NCBI GenBank assembly: GCA_021234155.1
Contig: JAJEKV010000066.1
Coordinates: 6,360,800 to 6,424,799 of the forward strand
Direction of reading: 5' to 3'
Origin: Isoetes taiwanensis
Lineage: Eukaryota > Streptophyta > Lycopodiopsida > Isoetales > Isoetaceae
DNA: 64,000 nucleotides
Shown: in pieces, positions 21,303 to 59,308 of the stretch
Layout of the letters: the number at the start of each line of letters is the position of its first letter
Numbering within the stretch: position 1 is the stretch's first letter
Notes under the pieces: model-generated
Seen by the model: only the letters and a program-made list of their open reading frames with translations
Databases searched by the model: none
What the model was told of the DNA's origin: nothing
Made by a program: the position numbers and the translations under genes

Positions 21303-21802
21303 CCAATGTAAGTTTTTTCTGTTGTTTTTTATCAGAAGATGGCTTAAGTTTTTTTTTGAATGCTTCATTCCTTTATTGTCTAAATGTCTATCCTTTGCAG
21401 ATCTCTTCCGCAAAAATGGAGGCATGCCCCATCTATACTGCTCCAATGTAAGTTTCTTATTTTGGTTCTCAAACCAATGGTTTTGGGGGATTATATTCCA
21501 TGTATAATGTTTTTTTTTTTTGGCACAGAGCATGAATGTTTCTTGAAGCTCACAATTATTTTACTTTAATGGTTGGAAATTGAGTGTAAATTTATACAGG
21601 GTCTTTTTTCATGGGCACTTTGGTTTTTTTTTATCCATATCGAAAGTTTGAACGAAGTTAAGCATAATAAACAAGTTGGTACTAAGGAACATAACCATAT
21701 AACACAATCAATAAGTCATTATGTATCATGAATACACAGACACATAGAATGGCCTTTCATATAGATACTGAAGTTGTAATGAACATAAAGCTTCTATAAA
21801 CC
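21303..21802. other. Downstream flank of the Mutator-like gene
   Basis: T-rich non-coding sequence between the MITE and the Mutator-like gene. I could not identify Mutator terminal inverted repeats here. Confidence 0.4.
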
Positions 21803-29905: not shown

Positions 29906-30235
29906 GGCCCAACATCTGGTCTGATATTCATAGAGCCCCTCCATTGAACGGAATTATGCTCCCCTTTATTAAGAAAGTAATCACAACAAGTGATTATTTA
30001 AGAAGTGCGTTAAAGTGTAATTTACAAAAAGTAAAAAATAAAGTATGTGGAAAAGAAGTGGTAGTTGCTGTAATTAGACATTGCTGGAGACAGAATAAGA
30101 GAATCCATTTTAAATTTCTTAGTGGATTTCCAAAACAATACAAAGGGCATTAATGCGAACATTAGAGAACAAAAAATTCAGTTCCTCGTACAAATCTATA
30201 CCGACATTTTAAAATTGAAACCTGTCGGTATAAAT
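29906..30235. other. Junction between the MULE gene and the methyltransferase region
   Basis: No gene is recognised; it may hold more upstream MULE sequence. A 9-bp inverted repeat ATACCGACA/TGTCGGTAT (about 30,198-30,232) lies just beyond the methyltransferase stop and belongs to the same TATAAATTTATA motif family as the intron repeats. Confidence 0.45.
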
Positions 30236-31452
30236 TTATATGACGGGAGGTTCCTCCCAGTCTACATGGCTCGCATCTCCCTTTTGCTCTGTTTCTTGTG
30301 ATGCCACGAAGCCTGAGACACCTGCTTCTGATTCTAATGGTACTGGAACTGACTGCTTGGGGGGCTCTACCTCCACTGGTTCGAGGTCTACAAACTCCAC
30401 CTCCTCGTCTTTTCTTCCTGTAATAGGAGGCTGGATTTTAGTGTAGGTGCCTTTGACATCCCCAGCACCATTTATTGATCCTAATTCCTCATTTTCATCT
30501 GGAAAGGACTCACAGGAGCTTATGCGAGTCCTAATGAAGTTGATTTTGTCTGGGTCAATGTCAACTGACACCACGTTACGCCCCTGCTTAAGAGCGCATA
30601 TAGCTGTGGTGCCAGTTCCTGAAAAAGCATCCAAAACCCAGTCCCCAGGGTGTGAAAACCATTGTATCAGATTGTTAATTAGCCTTTGGGGTTTCTGGTA
30701 GTGAGACACCACAGCGCCTTGCCTCTGCGGGTCTCTCAGCTTCTGTAAGACGGCGGGGAATTGGAATGCATTGCACGGTGGGGTCTTCTCACCTTAAGTG
30801 CACCATGATCTTCTTGGTGTCAGCGCTGTAGTAGCCTATGTGAAAATGTTCGAAGCAGCTGACTAACCGTGGACCACCACCATGACCTTTAACGTTTGTC
30901 TTCAGCCTAGAGCAGAAAGAAACTTAAGTCGAAAGTCTTGAGGAAATGGTATAAATGTATACGGCCGAGGGACTGCTGTATAAATTTATACCGCAGGTCT
31001 CCTGCTGTATAAATTTATACCGCGGGGTTCCTGCTGTATAAATTTATACAGCAAGGACTGCAGTATAAATTTGTGCAGCATAATCTTTTTAAAATACAAA
31101 AAGCAAGCAACTTCGAGGCTTACCAGATGCAATATTCAAAGCCGGCGTTGCAGACCAATGAAACGGGTTTTAACACAGACATCGTTTGAAGGTCGGAGTG
31201 AAAGATTATGACTCTCCAATTTGCCGACAACGTGACGTCCTTTAGACCATCCAAACATGCTTTTACTTGCACATGAGTAAAGGCTTCATCATCAAAAACC
31301 ATTGGAGGTTTGGTGGAGTCTATTAACGCCCTTGTAAGCCCTTCCCAAATTTGGATTTTAGTTGGTACCCGAACCTGCAGGTATGGGCAAAAAGCCCCCA
31401 CAAACCTTAACTCAACCTCAGCCCTGGAGCAACCGAACCTGTTAAACGTCAT
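30236..31452 (-). pseudogene. Bacterial-type beta-class DNA N4/N6 methyltransferase, transposon-borne, frameshifted
   Basis: Exon 1 (31,452-31,124) encodes DDEAFTHVQVKACLDGLKDV and NWRVIIFHSD. A 217-bp intron (30,907-31,123; GTAAGC donor, CTCTAG acceptor) restores the frame at a split Trp codon into LKTNVKGHGGG and HIGYYSADTKK. A one-base frameshift near 30,793 leads to GEKTPPCNAFQ, HYQKPQRLINNLIQ and the SAM-binding motif VLDAFSGTGTTAICALKQGR followed by VDIDP, then an acidic tail. QKP before motif I and motif I in the C-terminal half define the beta-class N6_N4_Mtase fold (PF01555-like), which methylates adenine N6 or cytosine N4. The catalytic D/N/S-PP-Y/F box expected upstream of DDEAF is not visible as such (KPPMVFDDEAF is the closest), so activity is doubtful even apart from the frameshift. 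The start at 31,452 is uncertain. Confidence 0.8.
30948..31079. repeat. Array of ~29-bp repeats built on a 20-nt palindrome, inside the methyltransferase intron
   Basis: Five copies are centred on TATAAATTTATA. The best, GCTGTATAAATTTATACAGC (31,033-31,052), is perfectly palindromic. Others begin at 30,975, 31,004 and 31,060, with a diverged one near 30,948. Spacing is 27-29 bp. The array lies entirely within the 217-bp intron. Confidence 0.85.
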
Positions 31453-31991
31453 TATTTACTTGTTGTTTTACTCATTACGCCTAAATCCCTCCTCCCCCAA
31501 CCTTCGCACCGAACTGAAGCTACAGGGAGTACTTCGAGCGGGACACCTCAAGAATGCCTCAATTGGGCACCAAAGCTTTGGAGGGCATTTCAAATTTAGT
31601 ATTGATGTCAATCCTCGCCCAAATTCGAAGGAATTCTCTAGTTTTCCTTCGTATTTTGGCGAAGAATTGCATCAATTTGGTCGCCGGACTGTGGAGCTCG
31701 GAAAGCGATCACGCGACTCTGAATTCGATCTATGGCAGAGGTAACTGTTCTATTAATTTCGAGCAATGACAATGAGTAATTCTTTTTTGAATACAGAAAC
31801 TGAAAGGCCAATTGAAGGTGGAAGTGCCCCAGAACTGCTTGCCCTACAAAAATCAATATAATCGGATTGCAATAATATTTCAAGTCATTCTGATGTGCAT
31901 TTGAGAACAATGTACAATCAATTGTGTGGAGTGCATTGCAATATGATAGCACACTGTAATTACCTCCAACAGTGTAACTATTTCTTAACCA
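31453..31991. promoter_or_regulatory. Divergent promoter region and possible first exon of the transposase-like gene
   Basis: The methyltransferase reads leftward from 31,452 and the transposase-like gene rightward, so control elements should lie here. An open stretch at 31,554-31,740 ends in GGCAGAG|GTAACT, a plausible donor, and could be a first exon, but I cannot confirm the join. Confidence 0.35.
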
Positions 31992-34120
31992 ACAGGTCTA
32001 AGAATACAGATGAACTGCAAGCTTCCAATCAAAGGTTGCTTATGGAGGTGGAGTCACTCAAACAAGGATTGAAGAGATGCTCTGAGAACAATGACAAACT
32101 GGAGAGGAAGTTAAAAAGATTGAAGATGACACCACTGGGCATGAGGGAGAGGAAAAAAGAACTGAAGGCCCTAAATGTACTTGCCCCTAGTGGTGGGGGC
32201 TCTAGAAGAAGAATCCACGCTATTAAAAATCTGGTGGATCCTACTATGGCTGAAAAGAAGAAGAGAAAACCTTGTAATATGGCTAGTTTGTTGAAAAAGC
32301 TTGTAACTAAAGAGGATGTTATAGATATGTTGAAGCTTCCTGGAGCTAACCATTTAAGAAAAGCTGTTGTCGAACAGGTGCTTACTGAATTGGGAAAGAG
32401 TCAAAGTGCTGATAGCATGCAAGAATTATGTGACAATGTGGGGTATCAGTCGACAAGATTACATTGCTCTCTTTAGATGTTTGCAGGATGGTATCAAACA
32501 ACAGGGTATTACGAAGACCATACTGCCAAGACTCAGTTATGTTAGAGCAAGCAGAACAAAGAGGAATGCAGAAGTACACGAACATTTGGGAGAGATGTAC
32601 CAGATCACCACATCCGTGCACTTGGGATCACTAATCACTGGGAAAAGTAAGAAGAAGGGTGGCTCCGGAAATGATCTATTTGTTCTTAATGAGAAGAATA
32701 ATTGTTGGATGGATCTCTCTAAAATGCTTCTTCTGTTAGTTCGCTTCTATGATATGAAAGTGGAAGAATGTGCAGGGAAACTCCAAATTGCTATAAAGTT
32801 GGATGAGATGGAACTGATCAAAGGTGAAAAGTATGAGAGGGTTTCTTTGACATTAATGAACAGGCGTTGTCAAATTCGATAATGAGGAAGGGAAGTTCTC
32901 TGCTCAATCGAGAGGACCATATTTGGTGGATAGGGATATTTCAAGCACCGGAAGAAAATCATGGTGTTCTTGATTGGGTCTTTTCGGCCAGACACCTATT
33001 CCTACTATTATTGCTTGCCGAGGAGTCCGAGAGAAGCTTCGGTTCCCGCTACGAGAGATTCACGAGGTTGAATGGCATTTGGTCTGCTGATCTAAAGACC
33101 ATCAAGTGCATGTATAACATGAAACATGGTTACGGTAAGACTACCCACGCATGTCCCTTACCGTTTGTATGCTAGGGTAGATGATAAGGGAAGGGAATGA
33201 ATACTCGAATGTGACCGGATGTTGAACCAACGCCGTGAAGAAGGAGGATCGAAACTTTGATTCCCATCCTTGCAATTCTGTGAAGAGAGTACATATCCAA
33301 GACTCTCCATGCCTTTCTATGAATAGTGGATAAGATGGTGTACATGAGCATTCTTTTTGCTTGGAATAAGTCTCCACAATCAGCCAGAGAAAAGTGTATG
33401 AAAGATGTTGAGAACGTACTTTCTGATCTTGGTCTTCATGGTGGTGACTATAAAATCTTGCAAGATCCTAAGAAGGGAGGCAGGGTTCCTTGTAAACCAT
33501 CCATGGGTGGGGTGAAAGCGAAAAGATTTCTGCCTTGTACTAAATTACGTAAGAATGGATCATTGCCAACTGGAAAGTGGGAGGGGTATAAGGACTTGCT
33601 GGTAGCAGAAGATGACCGTACTTCACGTGGGAGGGCAAAACTAAAGAAAATTAAAGCGTGGCAGAATCTGAGCAGTCTGGTAACTTTGATGGCAGAGAAG
33701 AAAATGGTGGGTGGAAAGTTAGATGAATTCAAAGTAGCAGTAATTGAATTCACGAAGTCGTTTATACAAGCATGGGGAGAATGCAATGTCACACATTACA
33801 TTCATATACTTCACGCCCATGGCTTGTGGTTTACCAAAGAGTACGGGAGCTTGGGAATATGGAATACGCAGGGAATGGAGAAGTCACATAAGTAAGCCAA
33901 GAATGCTTTTTTCAGGTTCACACAACATCGAGGTTCGTGTGGTAACTCATTGCAACAGATGTGCCAATAGTTCTATAGGAGGATTATCTGCAAGCTAGAG
34001 AAAAAAGATAAAGCTAAACAAGACACGACGTTGGCTAGAATATTGAGGAGAAAAGTTGAGCAGGAAAAAAAGAAGCAGATATGGTGTAGCTCTAGTGCAA
34101 CAGACAAGTTAAGGCACTGA
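31992..34120 (+). pseudogene. Transposase-like protein (coiled coil, YIH...YGSLG...QGMEKSH family), frameshifted
   Basis: The N-terminal part (31,992-32,440) is a charged coiled coil with MTPLGMRERKKELKAL. An extra G in GGGG near 32,440 shifts frame into GISRQDYIALFRCLQDGIK, followed by KLQIAIKLDEMELIKGEKYE and SLTLMNR. Another shift near 32,870 leads to HIWWIGIFQAPEENHGVLDW and ADLKTIKCMYNMKHGYGK. After a region with a probable intron comes a long frame (33,326-33,895) ending THYIHILHAHGLWF, YGSLGIWNTQGMEKSHK, continued by NAFFRFTQHRGSCGN. I know the H-Y-I-H / Y-G-S-L / Q-G-M-E-K-S-H signature from repetitive, transposase-like proteins of plants and invertebrates, but not its catalytic chemistry. 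It is divergent with the methyltransferase gene; the pair probably belongs to one mobile element. Confidence 0.65.
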
Positions 34121-34247
34121 CGATCCACAAGGATCAGACAGGGTAGAAGATATACTTCTGGGGTTTCAATTGTATGAACAATTTCATATTTATAGTATAA
34201 CTATTGACCATGATGTGCAACTATAATGTTTCAAATATGTTAGGTTG

Positions 34248-34511
34248 GCAGCGTGGGCATGGTGCGAATTTAGTTGGTATTCAATTGATGAATGACAAGT
34301 ATTCGCACTGTGGCCACGGTGCGAATGAAGTTGGGAATTAGTTATGGAATAACCAATATTCGCACCGTGGTCACCGGTGGGCACGGTGCGAAAATGACTA
34401 TTCCACATTCTGTGGGAAGGTCTATTTCGCATCGTCGCCACGGTGCAAAAATATCAGTTCCAACGTTTTTGGAGGGCACAATTTCGCACCGTGACTACAC
34501 ACACTGCGAAC
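34248..34511. repeat. Cluster of five copies of the CGCACCGTGG/CCACGGTGCG palindrome
   Basis: Copies lie at 34,301-34,326, 34,358-34,394 (with a split centre), 34,424-34,450 and 34,481-34,511, plus a weak one at 34,248-34,270, each bounded by A/T. The ideal form CGCACCGTGGCCACGGTGCG is a perfect 20-nt palindrome. Copies are ~58-65 bp apart. Non-coding. Confidence 0.85.
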
Positions 34512-34706
34512 AGAATGCTTATCTGAATTTAGAATCTACATGTAAGGAAAATGGCCAAGAGCTTTCCAAATTGAAAATGTGCGGTAAATAGATGGATCAC
34601 ATGTATCACTTATAGTTACATACTTATAACTAGCGAATGTCTGAAATATTCTAGTAATAGAATTTAGAACTCATATAAGAGGCATAGCATACATGAATGC
34701 AGAAGT

Positions 34707-34991
34707 TCATTCGCAATCGGGATCATCATGAGCAGGTAGTTGAGTGATGCGATTAATCTCATAGACGCGACGCTCTGGAACCCGATGAAGGTGGATAACA
34801 ACACGATAAAACCTGTTAGAAGAACGATTTCGACCCTCTGCTACTCCTTCCAGCCAGGGATCAAGGGGGATACCCACTTGAGAACATCTATAAAGATCAT
34901 TATATTTCATAGTGCAAGTAATGGAGTCTATATCTTCGGGACGAGGAGGCAAGACAGACCCCCTGTAATAAGAATAACCAGGCCGAGACAT
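34707..34991 (-). CDS. Small conserved protein of unknown function, LDPWL family, copy 1
   Basis: This is an open frame of 94 codons from an ATG at 34,991 (MSRPGYSYYRG...) to a stop at 34,707. It aligns with the plus-strand frame at 38,493: shared pattern RPE-x-I, then C-x-M/L-x-Y-N-D-L-x-x-C, G-[IV]-x-LDPWL, F-[YR]-V-x-[IV]-H, and E-x-YE-[IL]-N-x-I. No transmembrane segment or signal peptide is evident. I do not know this family. Conservation of a whole short protein between two places supports it being real. The stop-free frame runs further upstream (to 35,108), so an upstream exon or start is possible. Confidence 0.6.
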   Translation of the reverse strand: MSRPGYSYYRGSVLPPRPEDIDSITCTMKYNDLYRCSQVGIPLDPWLEGVAEGRNRSSNRFYRVVIHLHRVPERRVYEINRITQLPAHDDPDCE

Positions 34992-35164
34992 AGCAAATGG
35001 ATGCCTTCTGCATTGAATGGAGCTGTACTTATGTCGAACAAAATTATTGACATGCACTGTAGCAACATTATTAGTTATATATACGAGCATAATGTACAAA
35101 ATACACATGTAAATATAATGTACGTATATAGCATATATACCTGGTTTCTCTTTAAATAGACATA

Positions 35165-35326
35165 TATGCCTTCATTGTCTTTGTCTGCTTCTTGTTTGCA
35201 TGCTCTTTGCCTCCCTGTCTGCCTCTTGTTGCTCCTTGCCTCCCTGTCTGCTCCTTTCTTGCATGCTCCTTGCCTCCCTGTCTGCTCCACTAGTTGTTCC
35301 TTGTCTGCTCCACTAATTTTTTGCAA
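35165..35326 (+). repeat. C/T-rich imperfect tandem repeat, leader of the following gene
   Basis: Units such as TGCCTCCCTGTCTGCTCCTT and CATGCTCCT repeat imperfectly and end just before TTTTTTGCAAATG, the start of the next frame. The same arrangement precedes the paralogue at 36,615. Confidence 0.7.
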
Positions 35327-35860
35327 ATGGTAACTTTGCAAGAACATCCTCGCTGGGCTGATCCGGAATACCTGCAAGCATGCGGCAGAATAAATACGTG
35401 CACTTTTGATGAATTTTTTAGCAACTTTTGGGAGTATCGATGGCGTCACGGTCCAACCACAGAGCTTGCAAGGCAGCTGATCAACTTCATTATCGATCGC
35501 TATACTCGTCATCTCCCTCCACTGCAGGAGATCAGTTCGAGTCATGCAAGGATCACTCTAAGTGCTTTGGGACTTCTTGAACCCCCCTCAGATTTAGAAG
35601 ATAGGCTAGAATAGTTGAAGGACATGCTTTTCCATAGTTTCATGGCTGGATCACTATGTACCTCTGGTCATTCCTACTAGTGAAAAGAATAGGATTTATA
35701 TCCTCATTGAACTTTACAACTTCCATTACAAATCTTTTGTGGATATTGGTAAGCTCCTATTCCGTTCCCTTGACTTCAATATCCTGTGGTTACTGTCTAA
35801 ATTCCCCGAGTGGGATACAATTCCTTGGGATACACGTGACCTATGGCTACATAGCACACA
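35327..35860 (+). pseudogene. Unknown ~180-residue protein, WDTRxLW family, copy A (stop plus frameshift)
   Basis: The ATG at 35,327 lies in TTTGCAAATG. The first frame reads MVTLQEHPRWADPEYLQAC, FFSNFWEYRW, ELARQLINFIIDRY and LGLLEPPSDLEDRLE and stops at a TAG (35,612-35,614) where the paralogue has a Gln codon. After further damage another frame resumes with RIYILIELYNFHYKSFVDIG, LLFRSLDF and WDTRDLWL (about 35,690-35,855). Each block aligns with the paralogue at 36,615-37,212. The family is not one I recognise; it is mostly helical-looking, with conserved Trp, Tyr and Phe and no evident catalytic motif. Confidence 0.6.
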
Positions 35861-36129
35861 ACACATAATACGTACATATCACAGGTAAAGATACTCCATT
35901 GGAATATGTGTATAAACTGGTATAAAGATTTTCATAGAAATTAAGTATATAAGCAAGTGATTTTCGTGTAATTAAGTAACATCCTTATATTATCATGTAT
36001 TATCTTGGCAATCTTACACTTTTGATGTAATTGAATGATTTCTTCTACCATTTTCCTTGTATTTTCTCATGTGATTGTTCTATTTGTGGTCATATTCGGC
36101 ACCGTAGCCACGGTGCGAAATCGCTTTAG
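35861..36129. other. Spacer with one palindrome copy (36,093-36,121)
   Basis: AT-rich spacer. ATTCGGCACCGTAGCCACGG then TGCGAAAT at 36,093-36,121 is a near-perfect copy of the palindrome clustered at 34.3 kb. It directly abuts the truncated MITE. Confidence 0.6.
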
Positions 36130-36343
36130 GGTAAAAGCATGTTAGGGTGTCCCTTAAAAAGTATTATTTAGTGACCAAAAAAGTACCTAAAAAGGTACCC
36201 AGGACTGGGTACTGGGTACCTGTGTAATATGTCAATAAAAGATACAGTTTAAAACTTTTATATATATTTTGGTCTTCCATAGCATTATATTTATCTTAAC
36301 TTTACTTTTTTTTTGAACTTTTGTACTAGTTTTAATGAAAGGC
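36130..36343. mobile_element. Truncated second copy of the 319-bp MITE
   Basis: It starts with GGTAAAAGCATGTTAGGGTG and follows the reverse complement of the MITE at 20,984-21,302 through the GGTACC-type motifs, to the shared end of similarity at TAGTTTTAATGAAA. It has an internal deletion and lacks the far terminal repeat, being replaced by the C/T-rich repeat that follows. Confidence 0.8.
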
Positions 36344-36614
36344 ATCTTGCTACTTGATCTTGTTCCTTGCTTCCTTGCTCCATGATCTTCCTTGTTCCTT
36401 GATCTTCTTGCTCCTTGATCTTCTTGTTCCTTGATCTTCTTGCTCCTTGATCTTCCTTGATCCTTGCTTCTTGCTACTTGATCTTGATCCTTGTTCTTTG
36501 CTACTTGATCTTCGTGCTCCTTGTTACTTGGTCTTGTTCCTTGCTTCTTGCTCCTTGTTCCTTGCTCTGCTCCTTGTTCCTTGCTCCGTCGGTGATCCTT
36601 ACTTGCTTTTGCAA
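36344..36614 (+). repeat. C/T-rich tandem repeat, leader of the following gene
   Basis: Units of the type CTTGATCTTCTTGCTCC repeat many times with variation and end in CTTTTGCAAATG. Translation through it gives a Leu-rich stretch without a true ATG, so I read it as a leader and not a signal peptide. Confidence 0.7.
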
Positions 36615-37212
36615 ATGATTGGACCCAATCCTCCCTGGGCTACTCCAGAAGGCCTGCAAGCATGCCCTAGACATTCTGTGCGGCCTGAAACTGATGAGCT
36701 ATTTGACCATTTCTTGGAGTGGAGGTTGCACCACAGTCCCACCAAGGAGCTTGCAATGGAGTTGATCAACTTCATTTCTGGAGCGATTTGATTGTGGTCA
36801 TGAGCCACTGATGGAAATTAATCCATCTGAATGTTATAGGAGACTTGCAATGAGGGGAATTCTTGAACCCCCTCCTTATCTGGATGAGATGCTACAGCAG
36901 TTGAGGCCTCTTCTTCGTGCTGGTTATTTAGCACACTCTTTGGATCAATACATATCAGAGTTCATTCATGAAATTTGTAAGGGACAGATGTATGGCCTTA
37001 TTAGGGCATACTACAACGAGTACAACAACTTTGTGGAGTTGGGTCCGCTCTTCTTTCGTGAGTATCATCATCTGGAATTACTTTTTCTAATGACTAGGTA
37101 CCCCATATGGTGGGAAGAATCAGGCTGGGATACGCGTGAGCTCTGGTTTCCTAACCCAGCTGCGTGGGTTACTCCTCGCAGGGGAAGGGAAAGGGGAAGG
37201 GGAAGGGGTTAG
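36615..37212 (+). pseudogene. Unknown ~198-residue protein, WDTRxLW family, copy B (one frameshift)
   Basis: The ATG at 36,615 lies in TTTTGCAAATG. The first frame is MIGPNPPWATPEGLQACPR, ELFDHFLEWRL and ELAMELINFI. A one-base shift near 36,775 leads into ERFDCGHEPLMEINP, MRGILEPPPYLDEML, LIRAYYNEYNNFVELGPLFF, and WWEESGWDTRELWFPNPAAW, then an Arg/Gly tail (RRGRERGRGRG). Except for the frameshift the gene is complete, and it aligns end to end with copy A. The basic RG tail suggests nucleic-acid contact, but that is inference. Its neighbours (palindromes, LDPWL protein, methyltransferase) suggest a transposon passenger. Confidence 0.65.
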
Positions 37213-37398
37213 GAACCTAGGGGAAGGTTACTTGGGAAATACTGTCGTGGTCTCTAGTAACCTTTGCTATCTATCATACATAATTCATATGATACCGTGT
37301 TAATATGTTCTCTAAATGTTCTCTAATATGTTAATATGTTCTTTAATATGTTAATATGTTCCCTTTGATGTTGTGATTCACCTTCTATGGAATGATTC

Positions 37399-37485
37399 AA
37401 TTTTGCACCGTGGCCACGGTGCGAAATTGCCTGCCCTCACACAGTAATTTACACGCATTTCGCACCGTGGCCACGGTGCAAAATT
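37399..37485. repeat. Two inverted copies of the CGCACCGTGG palindrome beside the LTR
   Basis: Copies at 37,399-37,428 and 37,457-37,485 are each perfect over the 20-nt core and are inverted with respect to their T-rich/A-rich flanks. The LTR retrotransposon starts three bases later. Confidence 0.85.
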
Positions 37486-37487
37486 GC

Positions 37488-38200
37488 TGTGACGTTCCAG
37501 CATAACATACAGTATGAATACGTATATTATACTGACACGTCACTAGTACATGTCGACTCAGACGACATATACACGGCGACCGTAAAGGGTAGTACCCTAG
37601 GGTACGACCTTCTGAACCATTATATTGCACATGTTAAAGCAACATGTGAATATAATCCCTTTTTGCCACGTGGCAATGACCCATTGACCAAAAAGGGACC
37701 AACCCTAAATGCGTGGAGATAAAGGGGCATAAACCCTAAAAGGGAAACCCTTTCAGTTCTCAGCCCCTGAGTCTCGGATTGGAGCAGCAGAGGATGCATT
37801 TTCGCCTGAACGGAAGCAGAGAAGTCGGATCTCCCAGGTTGCAGCTCGATCCAAGATCAGCAGACCCGAGATCAGCAGCATGGACGCTTTCAGAGGAGTG
37901 GGAGCCGGCCAAGATGCGGGTGGGTGGTTGATTCAATAGGTAGATCCGAGTTATCAGGCCTCTTTCAGTAGGTTTAGCATCCATTCTTAGCTATAGGCGA
38001 CCCCCTACAGCCTAAGAATGATAGACACTAACAAAGGAACCTAACCATGTATGATTAGGTAGATTAGAATAGATGCATTCTGTTATGTTCAGTTCTGTTG
38101 ATGATGTTTTGACATTCTATGCGCCACTCTTGTGTATTGGGAAGGGGGGTAGAGACCCAGAGCCCAAGTAGTTGTATGATCATAGTTAGCGCCCATTAAT
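37488..38200 (+). repeat. 5' LTR, first part
   Basis: It runs from TGTGACGTTCC to ATTAAT at 38,195-38,200, which is duplicated at 48,737 by the insertion. It matches the 3' LTR (57,467-57,813) with four substitutions and carries a ~30-bp extra segment just after the first 11 bases. Confidence 0.88.
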
Positions 38201-38447
38201 TCCCAATTAAAGCATGATTTCATTAATTGGATAAAATAACGCAATTTTGAGAATTTTAAGCACACCTTATTTGCTCAAGCACGAATACTTTTACCTAGTT
38301 CTCGAGCCCAACAAACATGAGGTAATTAACATACACATATACATACAAATTATGTGTTATACTTGTACGTGTACATGATACTTGTAGAAGCCCAATAATG
38401 GCCCTACATTCTACACCAATAATTCACATCAATAATTTTCACTTCAC

Positions 38448-38455
38448 TATAAAAA
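38448..38455 (+). promoter_or_regulatory. TATA box of the LDPWL copy 2 gene
   Basis: TATAAAAA lies 45 nt before the ATG at 38,493. The same block (CACTATAAAA, CACTTCGGGG, CTCCCATGG) precedes the tandem copy at 39,186. Confidence 0.65.
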
Positions 38456-38492
38456 ATTATTTCGACTTCGGGGTAGAGATCATTCATCTCCC

Positions 38493-38723
38493 ATGGCTTC
38501 CTCGATGCCTCGTCCAGAGCACATCCGATCTTTCAAGTGCTACTTGAGCTACAACGATCTGAATGAATGCGCAAGAAATGGTGTTAATCTTGATCCATGG
38601 CTCCAATCTAAGGCCGATGGTCCTGCTAGTGCCTGCGGGGAAGCTCACTTTCGTGTTAAAGTCCACATTTATGGCTTCCCGATCGGGGAGATCTATGAGC
38701 TGAATAGCATCCGCGAGCTTTGA
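38493..38723 (+). CDS. Small conserved protein of unknown function, LDPWL family, copy 2
   Basis: An intact frame of 76 codons (MASSMPRPEHIRSFKC..., ending ELNSIREL) with a TATA box and short leader. It shares RPE-x-I, C-x-x-x-YNDL-x-x-C, G-V-x-LDPWL, FRV-x-VH and E-x-YE-x-N with the protein at 34,707-34,991. Those two lie in different mobile regions on opposite strands, so the protein travels with the elements. No membrane segment or known domain is seen. Its complete promoter-gene unit is duplicated downstream. Confidence 0.65.
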   Translation: MASSMPRPEHIRSFKCYLSYNDLNECARNGVNLDPWLQSKADGPASACGEAHFRVKVHIYGFPIGEIYELNSIREL

Positions 38724-39600
38724 TGTTGATGATGAGTGAATCAATGTTATCAGTGATGTTATCACCCGTTCAACATGTTATAGTGTAAGAGCTCTTGTGT
38801 TAAGATGAAAAATGCAAGACGTAATGAATAATAAATAGTCTATTGTAGTGATGTTATGGATAATAAATAGTATATTGTGAAATGCTTTAATGTACACAGT
38901 AAGACTCAAGTTTCATCTCCATCCTCAGATGCCTCTTTAGCAAGCAATTCCTGTAGCTGGATTCCTGTAGCAAGCAGTACGTAATTTCAACCACACCTGA
39001 ATTACTCAAGCACACGTTTTAAAAGCATACATATATCCATTCGAAAGATGTATTATACTTGTATTTATACAACGGTCTTATACACGAGCAATAATGGCGC
39101 CAAAGTCTACCCCAATAATTCACCTCAATAATTCTACCTCACTATAAAAGCTTCTCACTTCGGGGCTAAAGTTCATTCCTCTCCCATGGATTATTTGCCT
39201 TCATCAATTCACCACATCGAGGTGATCAAGTGCTCAATGAGCCACTCGATCTTGTTGGTTGCCTAGACAGGCATCTTCTTCTTGATCCCTACCGCGAAGA
39301 AAAGCTTTGGGCCCGAGATTAAGTTGCCTGCGTCAATTCGTGTAATGATCCATCTGATTTGGCTTCTGGCGAATGAGCTATGAGATATCGGGGATCACTA
39401 CTACAGATCCCTGAAGATGAATGAATCACACGCTTAACATTGTATAGTGTAAGAGCTCTTGTGTTGAGATGAAAACGCAGAGCGAATGAATAATAACTAG
39501 TCTATTGTAACTTGCATGTTATGAATGATATAGTAATTATGTAAAAGAGCATTGCATACCTCAAGAGTTCTCATCATCGCCCTTAGCTTCTTTAGCCACT
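38700..39600 (+). repeat. Two tandem ~0.7-kb units (LDPWL gene unit plus 3' end of the minus-strand gene), second halves
   Basis: Unit 1 (about 38,240-38,970) and unit 2 (about 38,970-39,600) share the region upstream of the promoter (CACACCT, TACTCAAGCAC/GCTCAAGCAC, CAATAATTCAC), the TATA block, the coding region, and the downstream block with GTGTAAGAGCTCTTGTGTT and TAGTCTATTGTA. Both also end with a Ser/Glu-rich 3' segment of the opposite-strand transposase (CTTTAGC(A/C)A). Confidence 0.65.
39186..39410 (+). pseudogene. LDPWL family, copy 3, broken tandem duplicate
   Basis: The ATG at 39,186 follows a TATA box at 39,143. The frame reads MDYLPSSIHHIEVIKCSMSH and then stops. The LDP block continues in another frame (RHLLLDPYRE). 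It is a decayed duplicate of the gene at 38,493. Confidence 0.55.
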
Positions 39601-42118
39601 AATTCTTGCAACCGAGCCCCCCCCACACTACTAGGGATCACCAACACGACAATGGCCTGGTCTCTACGGCCCAACCATAGTCTATTGTTTTCAAAGGTTG
39701 GTAGCGTGGCGGTCATTAGGATTGGGTCTCCAATTCTTGCTCCAGCAATCCCTATACTGCATTGCATATGAGGTTCCCTTTCTGGCAACAGGCTCAAACC
39801 AAGAGACAAACACCTCTTCGTAATGTGGGAGATTAGGGTCCTCTATTGGGTCCTCTTTGGCAAAAGCCAACCACGTCGGGTAGTTATCATGTGGTCTGAT
39901 TAGCAAGAGCATTCCTTTCTTGACATCTTGGTAGGGGTCGAATATTTCAACTGGGTTCTTGGGTCTACCCGAGAAAGGCCCAACGTAATGAGATGCTTCA
40001 ATGTGCTCATCCACAAACACTCTTTCGGGTTCTTCCAATGCACTCTGCCTGGTACTGGGCCAGAAATCTTGAATGACAGCTCTACCGGGCTGCACGTCCC
40101 CAAGCACTCGCAGCAAGGTGGACCAGTAGTCAATAACTTCATTCATGTATGTGTTGGACCATGACTTATCGCCAGCTCTAGAAATAGCTGCGCCCAAAGC
40201 ATCATGTACTTGGCAATAGAAGCTCTTAATGCACCTATATCTTTCAAGCTCCCATATGGTCTGCGGGACCTTAGGTGACCCTCTCTAAATCATAGGTAAA
40301 CCTTGGGCATCCTCCTTCCACATTCTGATTCCCTTTTCAGGGAGCCACTCCCTATGCCCTGGCCTCATCTTGTAGAACATTAGTGGCCATCCATCCTTCA
40401 TGCAAAACTTGAAGAGTAGAGGTTCCAAGTGACCACATAAACGGTCCTTCTTATCAGGGATAAAACCTTTCACGAATTCCTTCCAATCAGGAACCTCTGT
40501 CACAAGGTAAGGAGAAGGAGCCTTTGAACTACAATTGCTGAAGAGTTGCATAAGCTCGAAATAGTCAATGCATCCGATCTTCTCATTAGAGTAGAGTAGT
40601 TTCCAAATAGGGCATCTATGTCATCGTGGGTGTGTCCAACCATCATGAATCCCAGCTGCACTTGATCAAAGACACCTAACCAAACCAAGTATGACAAGTA
40701 AGAGAAAAGATATCTATTCTTATTCTGACCTGAGCAATTATCTAGTTGCAAGTAAAGCCTCCTAGGCAACTTGTTCGCTACCATGGGGCCTTTGATAGGA
40801 GGCATAAAATCATTTCTACTTGCCATTCATCATTTTTGTCCTAAGGTTATCGTGTTTTTAAAATTGCTCGCACCCCACTTTTCAGACGATCTGTATCTCT
40901 CAAATGGCCCCAATTATCCTCGGATCTATTCTCCGGTGTCTTCGGGTATGATTCAAGGATCCCACATGAAAATTAGAATCATCGGGCCGAGGGTCCAAGG
41001 GTGAGAAGTGGCCCAAGGCACCTATACCATGGCCGTGCATGAGAGCACACTGTAACACCCGACCTTGATCGTTCACCCCTCCATACGGACTTTGCTAGCT
41101 TCTCTAGGCGAGACCATGGTCTTATTCTGATCCATCTTATCATGTATAATGGTTAAAAGCGTGCTCGGGGAGATCTATGAGACAAAGCTCTCGGGACCCG
41201 ATAAAGGCTCCCCGCATGAAATCTGGGCGTCATATGTGATTTTCTCTCCATTGCAAGTACCCTTCTTTCATTTGGATCTCTGGTCTTAGCAAGCTTTTCC
41301 TTTATGACAATACAGTGTTACACTTAGAAAATGCTATCCTCTTAGCTATTGCCACCTCTGAATGATTCTCTTTCAAAGCATTTAAAGGACCGAAAGGAGA
41401 AATATGCTTGCCCTGTCATCTCCGTAACAGTAATATCTACTTCTTGGTGTATATCCTTCTTAGTCAAGACTGAAGGTAGCCTCTTAACATTTTGTCTGCT
41501 ACCCTCGCTCGTAATTTTCGAGCGGTGTGGCATCGTCTCTGCGTTTTCATCTATGAACATAGATAGCACGAAGATTGCCCGATAAAAGTATGAGACCTTG
41601 GCTTCTTAGACCCGGTATTTCCGTGCTCGGCAATTACGTGGCGTCATTGAAGAGCTTCTTCCACTTGTAAAAGTGGAAATGGGTATGCCATAGGCTTTAT
41701 GCCATGCTTTCACGCGACACCGTTTGTTATTCAACATCGGGTTCGCGAACTACACCATTTTCGAGCAAAGATCTAGCATGTTATATGCAAAGGTTGTGCG
41801 CTCCGAGGACTTCATGTTCCAGTAAAAGGTTCTCATGCAAGCTATCTCCTGGGATGTAAAATTTGCACAACATCGTTTCATGCAGCACAGTGATGACCTG
41901 AAGTCTAGAATAGCCTCAGCACTAGTTTTTCTTTCACATTTAGTCTGTGCTGGACGTGTCCTGGGTCTCCGATTGACCATGCTGTAAGGTCTCTTTTTGG
42001 TGATGCCAATTTCGGGTCTAATAGAGTAAGGTTCATTCTCCACATCCTTCTCCTTCACCGCAACCACGAGTAGTAGAACCGGAATGTTATCAACGAAAGC
42101 ACGAAGGCTATGGGCCAT
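39561..42118 (-). pseudogene. DUF7869-type transposase, several exons, disrupted
   Basis: In minus-strand order: a Cys-rich N-terminal piece (LCCMKRCCANFTSQEI, SSERTTFAYNMLD; 42,118-41,750), a poorly defined middle, then the DUF7869 core at 40,826-40,500. The core has RLYLQLDNCSGQNKNRYLF and GFMMVGHTHDDIDALF, whose D-N-C and GHTHDDID look like conserved catalytic-type acidic motifs of this family. It is followed by LVTEVPDWKEFVKGFIP (40,551-40,285) and a C-terminal BAH-like part with EHIEASHYVGPFSGRP and WLAFAKEDP (40,197-39,561). Frame changes and an LTR-like insertion at 41.05 kb break it. It is the best candidate for the transposase of the 10.5-kb element, though now inactive. The fragment at 188-1,203 belongs to the same family. 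Confidence 0.7.
41051..41322. mobile_element. Possible short solo LTR (272 bp)
   Basis: The ends are TGTAACAC and GTGTTACA, an 8-bp inverted pair, and TGTAACACCCGACC resembles LTR starts common in plants. It lies between coding parts of the DUF7869 gene. The flanks (CACAC and CTTAG) are not a target duplication, so this stays tentative. Confidence 0.35.
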
Positions 42119-42419
42119 CTGACAAGGTCATGCAGTTGGGGCATTTCTGCACAGGCTTGGCAGCGCATAGAGATCTTTTCAGGCATTGGAAATATGCTCA
42201 TGATAGTAGCAGCTATCGAGCCTTCCCCTAACTTCACGTCAGACACAGCATGGTTTGGATCGGCAAAAACGATAACACCATAGGCATAAGCCATGTGGCA
42301 GCATTCATGCATGAGTGTGCATGCCTTCTCAACTAACTCATCTCTAGAAAGCCCTTGCACATGATTCGTCTCATTACTGGCTAACCCCTCATTGCCTCTG
42401 TCCTGCCAGTTTATGCGTT

Positions 42420-42761
42420 TTATCTGACCTGGTGGGGTGCAAGCTTCCTCCTCTCTAACAAGTGGAGCAAAGAATGTCCTTCTTGTACCACAACACAAAA
42501 GTCCCCACAAATTTCTTCACCCATTTTTTCTATTTCCATTTCGTGAATTGGTAGCGGCAATTGTCCATCCAAAACGTTCACAATTGAAACAACAACCATA
42601 CCCTCCGGGACAGTCAAATTGTGATGGCGCTCGAAATTGTGGACTCTTCCCTCTGCCACCTTTTTTCCCAGTAGGTATAGCGGAATTACATCTGCCATCC
42701 TGCAAAGAAGAGGTCGAATATCGCGCCCACATCCTCGTAAGCAAAAAAGCACTGTGATCAT
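42420..42761 (-). other. Fragment resembling DUF8039-type transposon-associated domain
   Basis: The frame contains IPLYLLGKKVAEGRVHNF, LTVPEGMVVVSIVNVLDG and LPLPIHEMEIE, a pattern like the AxGxV...VxV domain found near plant transposases. Resemblance is by eye only. It may be the N-terminal part of the neighbouring DUF7869 gene or a separate one. The next minus-strand frame (42,510-42,055) overlaps it and has no recognised domain. Confidence 0.35.
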
Positions 42762-44487
42762 AAAGTACTACAGAAAATAGCGACTGAGAAATTAAAAAAT
42801 GTTCAGGACTTTCGCCACCGCGATCTTATCGAGCATGGGCAAGAACGCGGTCGCGCTTTTTGCAATCATTCAAACTAGCTGTTTCAATAAGAACTCATGT
42901 GCAAATCACATTTGGAGGTTAACAAGTGGTTTCAACTCATAGTTATCGATAGCTGGGAGTTCTTTGGTAAATAGCAAGTGTAGATGGTTGAAGGTATCGC
43001 GAGCGCCATCTCGTCGAAAGCACAAAAAGTTAAACGATTGACTTACGGACTAAAGCATTACTCATACCTCCGTAATATGGTGGCGTCAACGTCTACTTGA
43101 AGCCAAAGACCCGTCCGGAAGTCTGCGGTGTCATAAAAACAAGGTGTTTTGTATCATCCTCATGGAGAAAGAAAGCATATACTTGAAACACGCTTACATT
43201 GTATAATAAACACACCGGAATGCACGGTTTCCTTACAACATCTATTTTTACATAGTTGCACCAAAGTATCGGAGGTATCTTATCAATCCATGCAATACAT
43301 ATTGATGTTAGTGTAGAGACTTCGTCGGTTGTAGTTATAATTGAAATTCAAGCAAAGATAAACTTTGAGTTCACTTCAGCGAAAGGATATGCATCGAATA
43401 TGCCTTTTACCTCCTTGCAAACCCCTGAATTGATGCGGTTGAAGAATTCCAAATGTGCGATGGCGGAGTGCAAGCGGATTATGAGCCCTCGTCGGCGCGC
43501 CTTCAATGGATGCGGGATTCTGCAGCAAATCCTTGCCCGAACTTGGCCCAGCTTAGGCGCAGCTCCAGCTGTCTCGAAGATCTTGCAAAACAATCAAATT
43601 TGAATTGGCTTTTCCCGCTTTCACTTGAAATGTTTGTTATGGAATTCAAATTTTGCGATCCATTGTCCGTCCGTAATCCAATCGTCTTTGGAGCATTTAC
43701 GGTACGCATAGTCCGGCCATGTACCTTTAATGAATTGCCATTATGGCGTAAAGTTGAACGCGGACGTCCAAGTCGATAAACACCTTTTATGTAACGGATT
43801 ACTTGCTTTTTGGGCGAGCGATTATGCGACGGACGCATTTATGGCCGGTAATAATTACGGCCGGCCGGCCGGTAATTAATACTTCTGGGGTGCAATTAGT
43901 GCGCCCGCACGTGCGACGCCATTATGCCAGGCACGATTTTTCAAGCACCATTATGATGGGCGGGCATTTAAATTCCGCGGCCGCGTTCTATAAATTGAAA
44001 CTCAGAACCCCTCAAAACAAATTTCAAGACCGCGATTTCTTCAGCGCCGGGCTTCGACCTCGGGCGCTTCTCGAAGTCTCTCGAAAAGACTGGAATTTCA
44101 GACACACCCGCCCAGCATCCCATGGCACCAAAGGACTCCCTCGAGAAGGTAATTTCTAACATTTCAGCTCAAAGAAGATCGCGGCGGCGATCGTTACCTA
44201 CTAGAACTTCTATTGTTTTCATAAGTATAGCTTTCGGCAAAGATCGCGCCGCGGTCTTGGCCGGGCTAGGTTTTGTAATGTCTTGATAGTGTGGGTGCTC
44301 AACAAGATGCGACCGCGGTCTTGCTGAAAGCATAGATTTTCTTTCTTCGCGATGTTCATGAGTAGTAGTGTAGTAGGTCACTAGGATCGCGACCGCTGAT
44401 GTTCGTGGAGCGATGGAATTGTTTTCTTGCGTGGTTAGTCAAGCATACACAACATCAGCCGCGATATAGTGTGGAGTGCTATTTTAG
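42762..44487. other. Region between divergent genes of the 10.5-kb element
   Basis: No coding domain recognised. It is GC-richer than the flanks and holds GATCGCG-type palindromes at 42,844-42,857 and 44,177-44,401. A TTACGGCCGGCCGGCCGG block lies near 43,858. It is the likely control region for the minus-strand transposase and the plus-strand ParB-like gene. Confidence 0.4.
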
Positions 44488-44922
44488 TTGCTTGGAAGGA
44501 TCGCGGTCGCGTTTCTCTTGATGGTTTATACATTTTCGTTCCACAACATTTTGCGACCCATCGGGGCTCTCCACCACGAGCTTTTGTTTACAGCACTTGC
44601 TCTGTTTCGAGGACCGGATGTCGAACCCATCCGTATTATAACCCCTTCCAATGAAAGGAAATGGTGTATTGAGATTGCACAAGCCATACCGCACATTAAA
44701 GGTGATCGCAGAAAGGACCTGTGCCTGTTCCTGCGGACTGGAAAGAAACCTGAGGACGTTGAGCAAGTTGGCATAGTGGTAGCAATGTGGGAAGGCACAA
44801 AGAACAATGTGCAAGATGCTATCATATGCAGCATTGAGGACACACAAGCATTGCAATTCCTCGAGTACATTTTGAAATGGCGCAATTATGATCCGGCCCT
44901 TGATGACAAACCCAAAAAATGA
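44488..44922 (+). other. Open frame of unknown function upstream of the ParB-like gene
   Basis: A 144-codon frame, protein-like from about residue 55 on (KWCIEIAQAIPHIKGDRRKD, VQDAIICSIEDTQALQFLEY, ending DDKPKK). Its first part may be intron or leader. No family recognised. It could be an upstream exon of the following gene. Confidence 0.35.
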
Positions 44923-45278
44923 ACAAGCCGACCACTGAGGAAAAACGCCCCCACATCAGCTAAGGGTTATGGCTAGTTGTTGCCATCCTATGAATCTCTA
45001 TCTTTGTCGAATATAAAGGAAACAGAGACATATTGGTAGGGTTCTCGGCATGCGTAAATGGTTTGTCTACGCACAAGAAGCCTCCGAGCTGTGCTTTGAA
45101 AGCGCCGGACGAAAAATGCCCTCCGTGATGGACACCAATTGGCTAAGAGCCGTGGCCAAGGAAAAGAGTGTGAAACCTATTGCTACTTTGGGAGAGACGC
45201 CAGCACCAAAAAGGTTGTTGAAGAACCGAATCCACGATAAACCCCTCCCAGATTATTAACCCTACTCTTCCTCTTGCT

Positions 45279-47530
45279 TTGAAGGCCGATAGCACTACAT
45301 CTGATGGATTTATTCCAAAAAAACTCCCTCCTTTCAAAATTAACCTTAGAAATCTCACACCTGCTGACGATAGCCCGCAGCCCAGCAGCTCTCAAACCCC
45401 CCCCTCAGCCTCCTCTAAACTAGCATTGACATGGCCCCATGCACCTGCCATTCCAAATGAGTTGAAGTTCAATCCTAAGAGGAACGCAAGATGGCGAGCA
45501 AACCACTTTCGAAGCTTGAACAGTTCAAAAGGTTTTACCCCTTAGGGGTTAATTGGTTTACAAAGATTTCTATTTTTGATTGTGAACCTGCACCAGCAAA
45601 CTTGACACACAGAATGCGGTCAAATGACCATGTTCAAACTCTGGTTAAAAGCTTCAAGACATACCCGACAGAGGTCCTCACACCTCGGCGACGCCGTCGT
45701 CCGCTTGACCCTATTACCGTGTAACGATTTCATTATCTTTTGGACACTCGTTATGTAGATTTGACTTGATGGTTGTCTATCTTTCAGGAGGAGGGTGACA
45801 TGGAGCAATCCAGAAGATTTGAAGGGCAAGAAATTTTATATTATTTCTGGCAACCACAGTATTTGCGCGGCAAAACTCCTTTGTTCTATTGTCGGCCGTT
45901 GGAGCAAAGAACTAGAATTTGCCAAAGTATATGCTAGAAGAAGATCGAGGGTGCTCAACGGAAATCTTACAGACAAGGAATATATAGAGTTGAGTATTCA
46001 ATGCAACGAAGTAATTGCAAACACCGTGTACAGAGAGCCACTGATTGAAAAACTGCAACAACTTCGTCATCAGCACAAGGCTTATGGCTGTCCTCCACAA
46101 GGACCTATAGGGACAGCTACAACTTCAGCTTGGAAGGTATTTATTTATTTTCTACTCGCCAACATCGCGGCCGCGATCTTGATGACCTTTGCTTCTGCAG
46201 GATTTCCATGAAATTGCAACGACCACCTTGAAAGTGCAGGAGCTTAAGGATGAAAAACAATTCATTTTTATGGATGAGAAGGTTTTTAAGAAGTTAATGG
46301 AAGTTGCCGGTCTGTGGGTGAGTCGTAAACTCAGTGACGACCATGGTGAGTTTCCGGACAAGCCATCCAAAGATTTCTTTAACAAGACCTGGCTCCGGAT
46401 GCTACGAGGTATGTCGAATCTGCGAGGGTGTCACAAACCGCTTTCGATGAGATTATAGAAGGCAAGACGTATTTAAAGGTGCAAATGAGGGTTATAGCGG
46501 GAGATTTGATTGCAAACAACGGACAACCCGACATCGTAACCCTCACTTTTATGAGGCGCGAAATTTTATCTTATGCCACAAATTTGCTGCAGAAGGATTT
46601 CGATAGCTGGGAGGAATTGCTTCAGGCTTTTCCTGATCTGAATGAACAGAGAATACTGGATATATCGATCTGCGTACTGAGTGCGTGAAGGCTAACTATA
46701 ACAAGGATCATACACAAGGTAACCTACCACGTAGCCTTTCCGAGCCAATCAGAATATTCTAAAGCCAGAAGAGGCTAGAAAAAGAAAGGAAAAGAAAAAT
46801 ATTGTCATAGCAGTGACGAAGGATGGCATCCCTACTTCCTCCCAAGTGTCGAGAAGAATGCGACATTGATATTCATTGACATCCGAGGGATAAACAAGGT
46901 ATGGGATTGCAAGAAATACACGATCTATTTACAAGGATAGCTACCATGACGAATGCCAAAATTTATCACTTGGTTATTATCATGCGCCAAATGAATTTGC
47001 CCAATTGCTTGTATGCGATCGGGAATTCAAATTCAGGTGGCTACCTATCTTTAGGTTCTTATGAAGAAATGGGATGGGAGAGCAAACGAAGGGTGAAAGA
47101 ACATCGATGCTTTATTAGTCATATGTGCATTAACAGGAGTGATGTTCGGTAGCACCCGTGCAACCAGAGCTGGAGCTTAAGCCTATCTCCACACCGCAGC
47201 AAGGCTCCTAAGTCAACACCATTGCCTCCAATGCCGCTAACAGTAATGAGGATGCCGATGAGAAGATAAAAAAAGAAATTTCAGACTCTTTTACAGCAAA
47301 CCAAGATTCAAATGGGCGGCAATGGAAGGAGATCTTGTATTGAAATGTCACCTGAAAACCTCGATGCCTACCATATTGTTGAACAGCCGGTGCCAACCGA
47401 TGGTTGCATTCGATTTCTTTTCCGGCCGACTTCTCGTGTTGCTCTTATGCAAGGCAAAAAGAGCGTGGCCTTCGAAAAGTTCAGTAAAGTGTGCCGGTTT
47501 CGAGGGCGTTCTTGGAAACGCTTGAGAAAA
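45279..47530 (+). pseudogene. ParB-like domain / DNA methyltransferase fusion, multi-exon, decayed
   Basis: After a Pro/Ser-rich segment and a frameshift near 45,500 comes LEQFKRFYPLGVNWFTKISI and SNDHVQTLVKSFKTYPTEVL. An intron (GTAACG donor at 45,722, CTTTCAG acceptor at 45,787) joins in frame to TWSNPEDLKGKKFYIISGNH and SICAAK. The G-N-H-S/R motif in this setting is that of ParB/Srx-type nucleotide-binding domains. A 64-bp intron (about 46,137-46,200) carrying a GATCGCG palindrome leads to DFHEIATTTLKVQELKDEKQ and further helical frames (to 46,688). Near 47,430 a weak VAFDFFSG may be the remains of methyltransferase motif I, seen intact as VLDAFSGTG in the gene at 30.2 kb. ParB-methyltransferase fusions are known from bacteria and phages. 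The methyltransferase part here is uncertain. Confidence 0.55.
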
Positions 47531-48736
47531 TGGCCAATCAAAGTACGGGGAGTTTGAAGAAGAAGAGAAAGCGAGAATGTTGAGCCCGATCCACCGCCCA
47601 ACATCGGTATCACCCAAAAACACAGATCTATCAAACCCGATTCCATTTTGGAGAACCTCGATGCTAAGTCCTCTGAAGAGAAAATGGCGTAAACAAAAGC
47701 GCTTGCTTGAAGAGCTAAAAAGGTATAGAAGCCCCGAGCCCACTTTTCAAAAATTGAGTGCACTTAATGAGAAGTTTGATGGGTACATGCCTTTCTTGAC
47801 AAACGAACATAAGTTTCAATACGTGGGTGTAGAACACATGGAAACAGACCACCAAAGACATGGAAGGCACTAACAAAGACATGGAAGCGCACCAACAAAG
47901 ACATGGAAACCGACGAAGATGAGGTTCTCGGACACAAGAGCATCGTGTACACAAAGAAGAAGCGTAAGCTCTCTCATCCACGCAGATTGCTAATGAATCG
48001 GAGAAGGAACTTATAGGCGGGAGCAAAGGGCAGACGGATGAAAAATGGGAGCCTGATTCACATCTGCAAAGCGCCATCGCAAACGCCATGGGTGTTCGAT
48101 TCCGTGAGGTCACAAAGTTATTCGAGAGATGGACACAACACAAGCTATGGAATTGGGTAGAGAGCATGTCAACCGCATGGCCAATGAAATGGGTGTGATA
48201 CGATCAAGTATCTGAAACACAATCAGAATAATGAATGTTGTATATTACTTCCTTCAATGGAAATTTTGGTTTCAGGAATATGTATTACCATATCTTTTTG
48301 TCTTTAACCATAGCTTTTACCATATGTTTAATGCTAAAAATAATCACGACCGCAATCCTCTATAGCAATTATCTGGCTTTAAATACTGAATTTTTTGTGA
48401 TATGCTTGCTCCTCGGTACCTTATTTTAACACAATGCTCTCATATGGTCTTAATAAAAGGCTCATTATTTTGTCTCCTTTCAGGTAAAAACATCGCGTTC
48501 GCGATTCTTGCGATAAGTTTGTGCATTCCCTCCTACTACCTTCTACTGGCGATGGACCTTTGCATGAGCTGTAAAAATTATATTTCCGCAGAACACTGAA
48601 TCATTTGCAGAATTTGTGCAAAAAAAACGCCAACTTTTACTCAGTTGGTAGCAGTTTTTGAACTGTATGGCTACCCGCTAACCTATTTCATGCTAAACGA
48701 GAATTCCAAATTTCTCTAATTAATGAAATCATGCTT
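47531..48736. other. 3' part of the 10.5-kb element
   Basis: Degenerate coding-like sequence (for example 47,577-47,873, Lys/Arg-rich) followed by an AT-rich tail that holds one palindrome copy (48,490-48,508) and the right terminal inverted repeat. Confidence 0.45.
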
Positions 48737-48742
48737 ATTAAT

Positions 48743-57453: not shown

Positions 57454-57466
57454 AAGGTGGGGAGAA
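57454..57466 (+). other. Polypurine tract
   Basis: AAGGTGGGGAGAA directly precedes the LTR start TGTGACG. The chromovirus has the same tract on the other strand. Confidence 0.85.
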
Positions 57467-59307: not shown

Positions 59308-59308
59308 T

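Follow-up and report, generated by a model that had tools for sequence, protein, structure and literature searches.

A MULE transposase and a DUF1985 protein are the hallmarks of the VANDAL/VANC system. VANC proteins bind arrays of motifs in the noncoding regions of VANDAL transposons, introns and upstream regions included, and methylation is lost (PMC5735166). The elements described here share with this system a transposon-encoded factor and family-specific short motifs that lie in introns and other noncoding parts and diverge between families, whereas VANC acts by binding and methylation loss and our elements carry a long palindrome and a predicted bacterial-type DNA methyltransferase (MTase) (PMC5735166 and PMC10398659). 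Fungal DNA transposons with TET/JBP dioxygenases likewise encode a DNA modification enzyme that may counter silencing by 5-methylcytosine (5mC), as proposed here; however, TET oxidizes 5mC, our enzyme is a predicted writer of the N6-adenine/N4-cytosine class, and palindrome arrays are not mentioned in the accessible text of that report (PMC12730594). C5 methyltransferases and Dam-like adenine MTases are also known from retrotransposons, the latter from DIRS elements (PMC5890265). These reported enzymes are mobile DNA MTases too, but of the C5 or Dam type, whereas in our case the carrier is a DNA transposon and the predicted enzyme is of the permuted beta class with a ParB-like part. Mariner elements that bear a methyltransferase are said to reside in large algal viruses. 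They combine transposase and methyltransferase in a DNA transposon, as here, but have Methyltransf_26 and C5 domains and an endonuclease gene, and the accessible text does not mention a ParB-like part (PMC3627910). The N4CMT protein of bdelloid rotifers is, like our enzyme, a bacterial-type beta-class amino-MTase in a eukaryote; it is encoded by a host gene, has a chromodomain, and helps to silence transposons, whereas our MTase gene belongs to a transposon (PMC8885841). The accessible part of the same report states that N4CMT has no eukaryotic homologs, and our MTase is another PF01555 enzyme in a eukaryotic genome beside it. All of these comparisons follow the accessible parts of the cited reports.

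Among the papers listed in full-text literature searches, neither a DUF7869 transposon nor a transposon-encoded combination of ParB and MTase was found, and the term DUF7869 did not occur in the texts searched; Repbase and most subscription papers lay outside the scope of these searches. As judged from sequence, what is new is the combination of a bacterial-type amino-MTase, a ParB-like part, and palindromes as candidate targets. N6-methyladenine (6mA) and N4-methylcytosine (4mC) are disputed as real eukaryotic marks, and a high-copy transposon with a conserved methylase provides a defined locus for a long-read test. The window analyzed here, by which we mean the whole 64-kb stretch of Isoetes taiwanensis DNA at positions 6,360,800 to 6,424,799 of contig JAJEKV010000066.1, contains one dead fragment of a family that we call family A (30.0 to 31.3 kb) and one dead element, E2 (38.2 to 48.7 kb). 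Genome-wide searches covered the whole assembly (1.66 Gb, 1110 contigs).

A methyltransferase fragment beside an unrelated repeat

The first-pass annotation had placed a spliced beta-class MTase with a QKP box and the motif VLDAFSGTGTT opposite a YIH/QGMEKSH transposase-like gene, and had taken both as one mobile element at 30.2 to 34.1 kb. The MTase at 30.2 to 31.3 kb is real, but the pair proved to be a wrong example. The MTase gene lies on the minus strand within a 1.3-kb fragment of family A (30010 to 31299) that comprises the MTase end, an intron with a palindrome array, and the 3' part. This fragment showed 98% identity to locus L014 and 89 to 94% identity to loci L015 to L019 and L022, and homology ends at position 31299. 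Exon B (30239 to 30906, minus strand) contains the QKP box, motif I (VLDAFSGTGTT), and an acidic tail, with one frame break near 30795. The remainder of exon A (31125 to 31299, minus strand) has lost motif IV, which reads DIPYG in other copies, through truncation. The intron between them (30907 to 31124) holds a tandem array of the palindrome TATAAATTTATA at 30948 to 31080, and a further copy of TATAAATTTATA is located at the MTase stop codon (30229 to 30240). The assignment of the two minus-strand exons to the beta class was borne out by a match to the Pfam family N6_N4_Mtase (PF01555) with an E value of 5.6e-15 and a score of 56.3 bits, which is above the curated cut-off of 26.7. In addition, MboIIA was matched in the PDB at 1e-8, and 29 phage and 23 plasmid records matched at an E value of 1e-5 or less, one of which aligned over 82% of the query with 26% identity. 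Protein-database searches yielded at most four PF01555 proteins, and scans of viral contigs reported one relative and returned no locus.

The YIH/QGMEKSH gene (exons within 31862 to 33895, plus strand) is a separate multicopy repeat with at least 150 genomic matches and open frames of up to 902 codons, and it has no Pfam match. We rejected it as the partner of the MTase gene, as it was absent from all 20 of the other MTase loci that we fetched. Among the 150 MTase and 150 YIH matches listed, the pair in the window was the only one within 10 kb, and one further pair was found at 10.6 kb in the same orientation. A convincing pair of terminal repeats was sought in the 30.2- to 34.2-kb region and not found. 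The MTase part there is a fragment, and homology and genome-wide pairing show the region to be the junction of two unrelated repeats.

Family A and its divergent DUF7869 gene

The genome search with the MTase scored 150 of 2793 candidates, all of which matched, including the window copy. No stop was present inside 98 of the 150 matches, and 52 had an internal stop. The genes are broken in the window, as noted in the first-pass annotation, but matches without a stop exist elsewhere, and exons are under purifying selection as described below. Twenty of the other 149 loci, mostly high-scoring ones with open frames, were fetched with approximately 7.3 kb of upstream and 2 kb of downstream sequence. 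A divergent DUF7869 gene was found in 11 of the 20 loci (E value of 3.2e-26 for the Pfam match in L024), and its first part was found at the edge of the stretch in 2 more. In L016, the strand of the MTase carried only a short DUF7869 match of 45 residues (40%), and no DUF7869 match was found in the remaining 6 fetched loci. Among the 150 DUF7869 matches listed, 44 pairs with an MTase match were within 10 kb compared with 0.27 expected, involving 43 of the 150 MTase matches; 43 of the 44 pairs were divergent, and 31 of these 43 had distances of 6.15 to 6.72 kb. For 107 of the 150 MTase matches, no DUF7869 match was present within 10 kb among those listed. The recurrent pairing is that of MTase with DUF7869, and the broader proposal, in which a mobile element combines a transposase with an oppositely oriented DNA-modifying module, gained genome-wide support from these 43 divergent pairs among the matches listed.

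In family A, the left end reads AACAAGGTTTAAAATGAAACGCACTTATTT, the right end is nearly its reverse complement, and the terminal inverted repeats span approximately 30 bp. Four of five extended copies had both ends and a 4-bp target duplication (TAAC, TAAC, ATGG, and TTAT), and the left end of the remaining copy, L018, is lost. The four elements with both ends are 8.5 to 8.8 kb long. In each, the MTase gene lies at the left on the minus strand and is followed by an intergenic region and then by the DUF7869 gene on the plus strand. Terminal inverted repeats and a target duplication of constant length, which characterize DNA transposons with terminal inverted repeats, were thus both present. Family A shares its duplication length with Sola2 elements, for which the accessible text of PMC3627910 also gives 4 bp. 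Candidate acid-triad stretches in the L015 transposase are VIDGMD, LQLDN, and GHTHDQID. The ParB-like exon lies upstream in the MTase gene in 17 of the 20 loci, and in L032 it lies within an inverted segment. The VANDAL/VANC hallmarks MULE transposase and DUF1985 were not found in L024, in which a Pfam scan at E values up to 1 of three minus-strand frames of 1401 to 5902 and three plus-strand frames of 5900 to 9849 gave no families other than those of methyltransferases and DUF7869. L016 additionally holds, to the left of the family-A element (positions 1 to 1468), a member of a second MTase family that is more distant, with 58% identity over the best piece.

Predicted enzyme and ParB-like part

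Profile comparison of the family-A MTase with seven MTases of bacteria and phages gave an alignment across almost the entire domain, with a probability of 99.5 and an E value of 1.7e-22 for this single comparison. The PF01555 match of L024 scored 58 bits. In the exons of L024 and in the profile alignment, motif IV precedes motifs X and I, which is the order of the permuted beta class. The stretch CIADIPYG was intact in 18 of the 20 loci, frame-broken in one, and missing together with its exon in one. Motif IV, for which the pattern is (D/N/S)PP(Y/F/W), reads DIPYG in these 18 loci, near the DLPYG of phage L001; it is absent from the window copy. From these features, the family-A MTase is predicted to be a beta-class amino-methyltransferase of bacterial type.

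The sole PHROG match of the family-A ParB-like exon was "ParB-like partition protein" at a weak E value of 0.062, and the corresponding exon of E2 had no PHROG ParB match. The ParB models in Pfam gave no match to the ParB-like exons at E values up to 10, and in the PDB the family-A exon matched best to an unrelated enzyme (E value of 0.002). The ParB-like part also contains a box, GGTHS/SGNHS, which we take to resemble GxHR. The ParB-like assignment, based on this weak PHROG match and the short box, is putative. A phage protein with weak similarity to the exon was set aside, as it has no ParB match itself.

The nested element E2

For the region at 39.6 to 47.5 kb, the first-pass annotation had described a DUF7869 relic that diverges from a ParB-like gene with a possible MTase end. 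This layout was recovered within a bounded transposon, E2 (38210 to 48736), with 19-bp perfect terminal inverted repeats and an ATTA duplication at 38206 to 38209 and 48737 to 48740. E2 interrupts the 5' long terminal repeat (LTR) of a retrotransposon (37489 to 49576, plus strand; primer-binding site TGGTATCAGAGC at 49578), and its left and right flanks adjoin each other in an LTR copy at 57.8 to 58.7 kb. The 5' part of the interrupted LTR aligned with 57467 to 57813 with 341 matches, 5 mismatches, and 33 gap columns. Because these parts differ at only 5 of 346 aligned positions in addition to the gap columns, E2 probably moved rather recently, though its genes are broken. We infer that the transposase for such a move would have had to come from a different copy. 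At 56612 to 60112, the ends of two retrotransposons meet head to head: a truncated LTR is joined to an inverted, diverged LTR, and the flanking inverted arms are approximately 0.85 kb long with 77% identity.

The broken DUF7869 gene of E2 occupies 39691 to 42825 on the minus strand, with the Pfam match at 40545 to 40778. It is separated by a palindrome-containing intergenic region (42831 to 44550) from a broken plus-strand gene (44551 to 48203) with ParB-like exons at approximately 45530 to 45718 and 45795 to 46136 and an MTase-like remnant at approximately 46742 to 47480. The palindrome ATCGCGGCCGCGAT lies in an apparent intron at 46164 to 46177, and others are located at 44178, 44500, and 48492. 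E2 also contains a gene for an LDPWL small protein (38493 to 38720, plus strand) with a decayed tandem copy near 39.19 kb; the gene lies in a tandem duplication of approximately 0.7 kb (38330 to 39510), the second copy of which has decayed. Two LDPWL-like matches were also observed in L016.

All 150 scored matches of the E2 ParB-like exon, from 3193 candidates and with the window copy included, were positive, and three E2-type matches (L047, L048, and L049) were fetched in full. L047 and L048 have the same right terminal sequence as E2 with other flanks, and both have DUF7869 remnants opposite the plus-strand gene; L049, which is more distant, showed no such remnant. In the plus-strand gene of L047, a motif-I-like stretch, VLDFFSAGTASRVALMQGKKSVAFE, aligned weakly with bacterial MTases (probability of 72 over 63 columns). 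The E2-type MTase part had no Pfam match and only unrelated proteins in the PDB. Because its motif IV reads DIRG, the predicted E2-type MTase may be inactive. The MTase end was not upheld on the window copy, as shuffle Z scores were -1.1 to 0.6 in seven of eight comparisons and 3.6 in one.

Direct similarity between E2 and family A was slight: in a one-to-one comparison, 24 residues of DUF7869 matched at 2e-7. Profile comparison gave probabilities of 18 for the MTase parts and 6 for the ParB-like parts, and common descent of the latter was not supported at this value. The common layout, DUF7869, and the 4-bp duplication lead us to infer that E2 and family A are related.

Palindromes, selection, and CpG content

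Eleven family-A elements that are complete or almost so contain the sequence ATAAATTTAT 19 to 30 times each (264 copies in total), and these palindromes would form the candidate address of each element. The family-A consensus is CGGTATAAATTTATACCG, the core of which consists of A/T only. Any other palindromic 10-mer occurred at most once per element, and the family-A palindrome did not occur in 16.6 kb of left flanks. The sites are located in the intron between both MTase exons, in a second apparent intron, and between the genes, and one is present at the MTase stop codon in 10 of the 11 elements. E2 and its relatives have the palindrome ATCGCG-NN-CGCGAT. The second MTase family in L016 contains TGTATTCYRGAATACA four times, with the outer GTAT...ATAC as in family A.

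Selection was estimated from copies without stops, after removal of pairs whose dS was saturated or did not exceed 0.05. The median dN/dS was 0.07 for the motif IV exon (11 copies, 26 of 55 possible pairs). The ParB-like exon, which was outside the query, had a median of 0.05 (10 copies, 21 of 45 pairs), as did the motif X-I core (21 copies, 115 of 210 pairs). The acidic tail had a median of 0.18 (21 copies, 163 pairs). The value for MTase exon B is lowered because the copies were picked by protein similarity to that exon. Two DUF7869 pieces gave 0.15 and 0.40 (6 copies each; 14 and 15 pairs). Seven E2-type copies gave 0.01 (19 of 21 pairs), with the same bias from the selection of copies; the window copy and L049, in which dS was saturated, were left out. 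The ParB-like and MTase exons of family A are under purifying selection.

The observed/expected (o/e) ratio of CpG was determined in 10 family-A elements; L032, with its inverted segment, was omitted. The median for the intergenic region was 1.32 and fell to 0.99 when palindromes were masked, compared with 0.51 in MTase exon B and 0.43 in DUF7869, and the stretch of the ParB-like exon was intermediate (0.39 to 0.85). Median TpG/CpA was 0.81 in the masked intergenic region and 1.14 and 1.30 in MTase exon B and DUF7869, respectively. The E2 intergenic region had the highest CpG o/e among 1.7-kb segments of the 64 kb (1.28; maximum of 0.93 elsewhere and mean of 0.63) and retained 1.19 with motif cores removed, and the intergenic regions of its relatives had values of 1.30, 1.37, and 1.03. 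The intergenic region thus looks as if it has evaded 5mC over evolutionary time, with coding constraint as a partial confounder, and the pattern could also be that of any unmethylated promoter.

Proposed function and alternatives

That DNA transposons of this genome carry their own bacterial-type methylase gene together with palindrome arrays suggests self-marking of their DNA. The best reading, to which we assign a little less than an even chance, is a self-targeted DNA-marking module that would counter host silencing. Two divergent genes would encode, respectively, a DUF7869 transposase and a protein in which a beta-class amino-methyltransferase follows a ParB-like part. The ParB-like part would bind the family's own palindrome and thus hold the MTase on the element. 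Such tethering is an obvious guess, since ParB proteins bind palindromic parS sites and spread. The MTase would then add 6mA or 4mC at the palindromes, 6mA being proposed because of the A/T-only core. The mark would keep the shared promoter region free of host 5mC, and the transposase gene would thereby stay expressible, which would amount to a sequence-specific anti-silencing system. A more specific form, in which the ParB-like domain reads parS-like palindromes, guides 6mA/4mC writing over the noncoding parts, and excludes 5mC, with the address co-evolving with the palindrome, is possible but doubtful. If true, the transposon would carry a self-addressed epigenetic writer, a natural module with a candidate targeting sequence, and transposon-encoded anti-silencing, so far a matter of 5mC being removed or blocked, might come to include the writing of a competing mark.

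Bacterial Dam controls IS10 via hemimethylated sites, and the methylase could likewise regulate transposition, with transposase expression or end cutting tied to replication through hemimethylated sites and no escape from silencing. The palindromes adjoin the transposase promoter region, their symmetry fits hemimethylation control, and the exons are under purifying selection; however, the majority of the palindromes are situated in apparent introns or intergenic DNA and not at the termini, CpG retention is not predicted, and we regard this explanation as unlikely. It is also improbable that the palindromes bind the transposase or host transcription factors while the ParB-like/MTase protein works at other sites or on DNA in general and CpG retention reflects ordinary promoter hypomethylation. 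Arrays that flank the divergent promoter region would agree with such a role, but arrays also occur in apparent MTase introns, the stop-codon site is kept in 10 of 11 elements, and palindrome identity differs between families with different MTases.

The module could instead silence or limit its own element through a mark that recruits repression and caps copy number, as the accessible text of PMC8885841 describes a bacterial N4C methylase of bdelloid rotifers that marks transposons for silencing. We consider this quite unlikely, since the CpG-rich, TpG-poor control region suggests little 5mC and a selfish element would not be expected to keep a self-limiting gene under strong selection. The first-pass annotation had suggested that the elements perhaps mark or silence themselves; the CpG pattern speaks somewhat more for an escape from silencing. 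The broken window copies and the internal stops in 52 of the 150 scored matches would suit an MTase gene captured once as a bystander with no transposon function. This explanation is disfavored and highly improbable in view of dN/dS values of 0.05 to 0.07, 98 of 150 matches without a stop, and a ParB-like exon in 17 of 20 loci.

Other features of the window

A third repeat (34245 to 37488) lies between the YIH/QGMEKSH gene and the interrupted LTR. It contains an LDPWL gene on the minus strand, two diverged copies of an uncharacterized open reading frame on the plus strand, and a palindrome family of its own, CGCACCGTGGCCACGGTGCG, near both ends and once internally. A short repeat is present in two inverted copies with approximately 87% identity at 21073 to 21306 and 36126 to 36340, the latter within the third repeat. 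In addition, a 494-codon open reading frame on the minus strand (6725 to 8209) presumably resembles an intronless MATE-type transporter.
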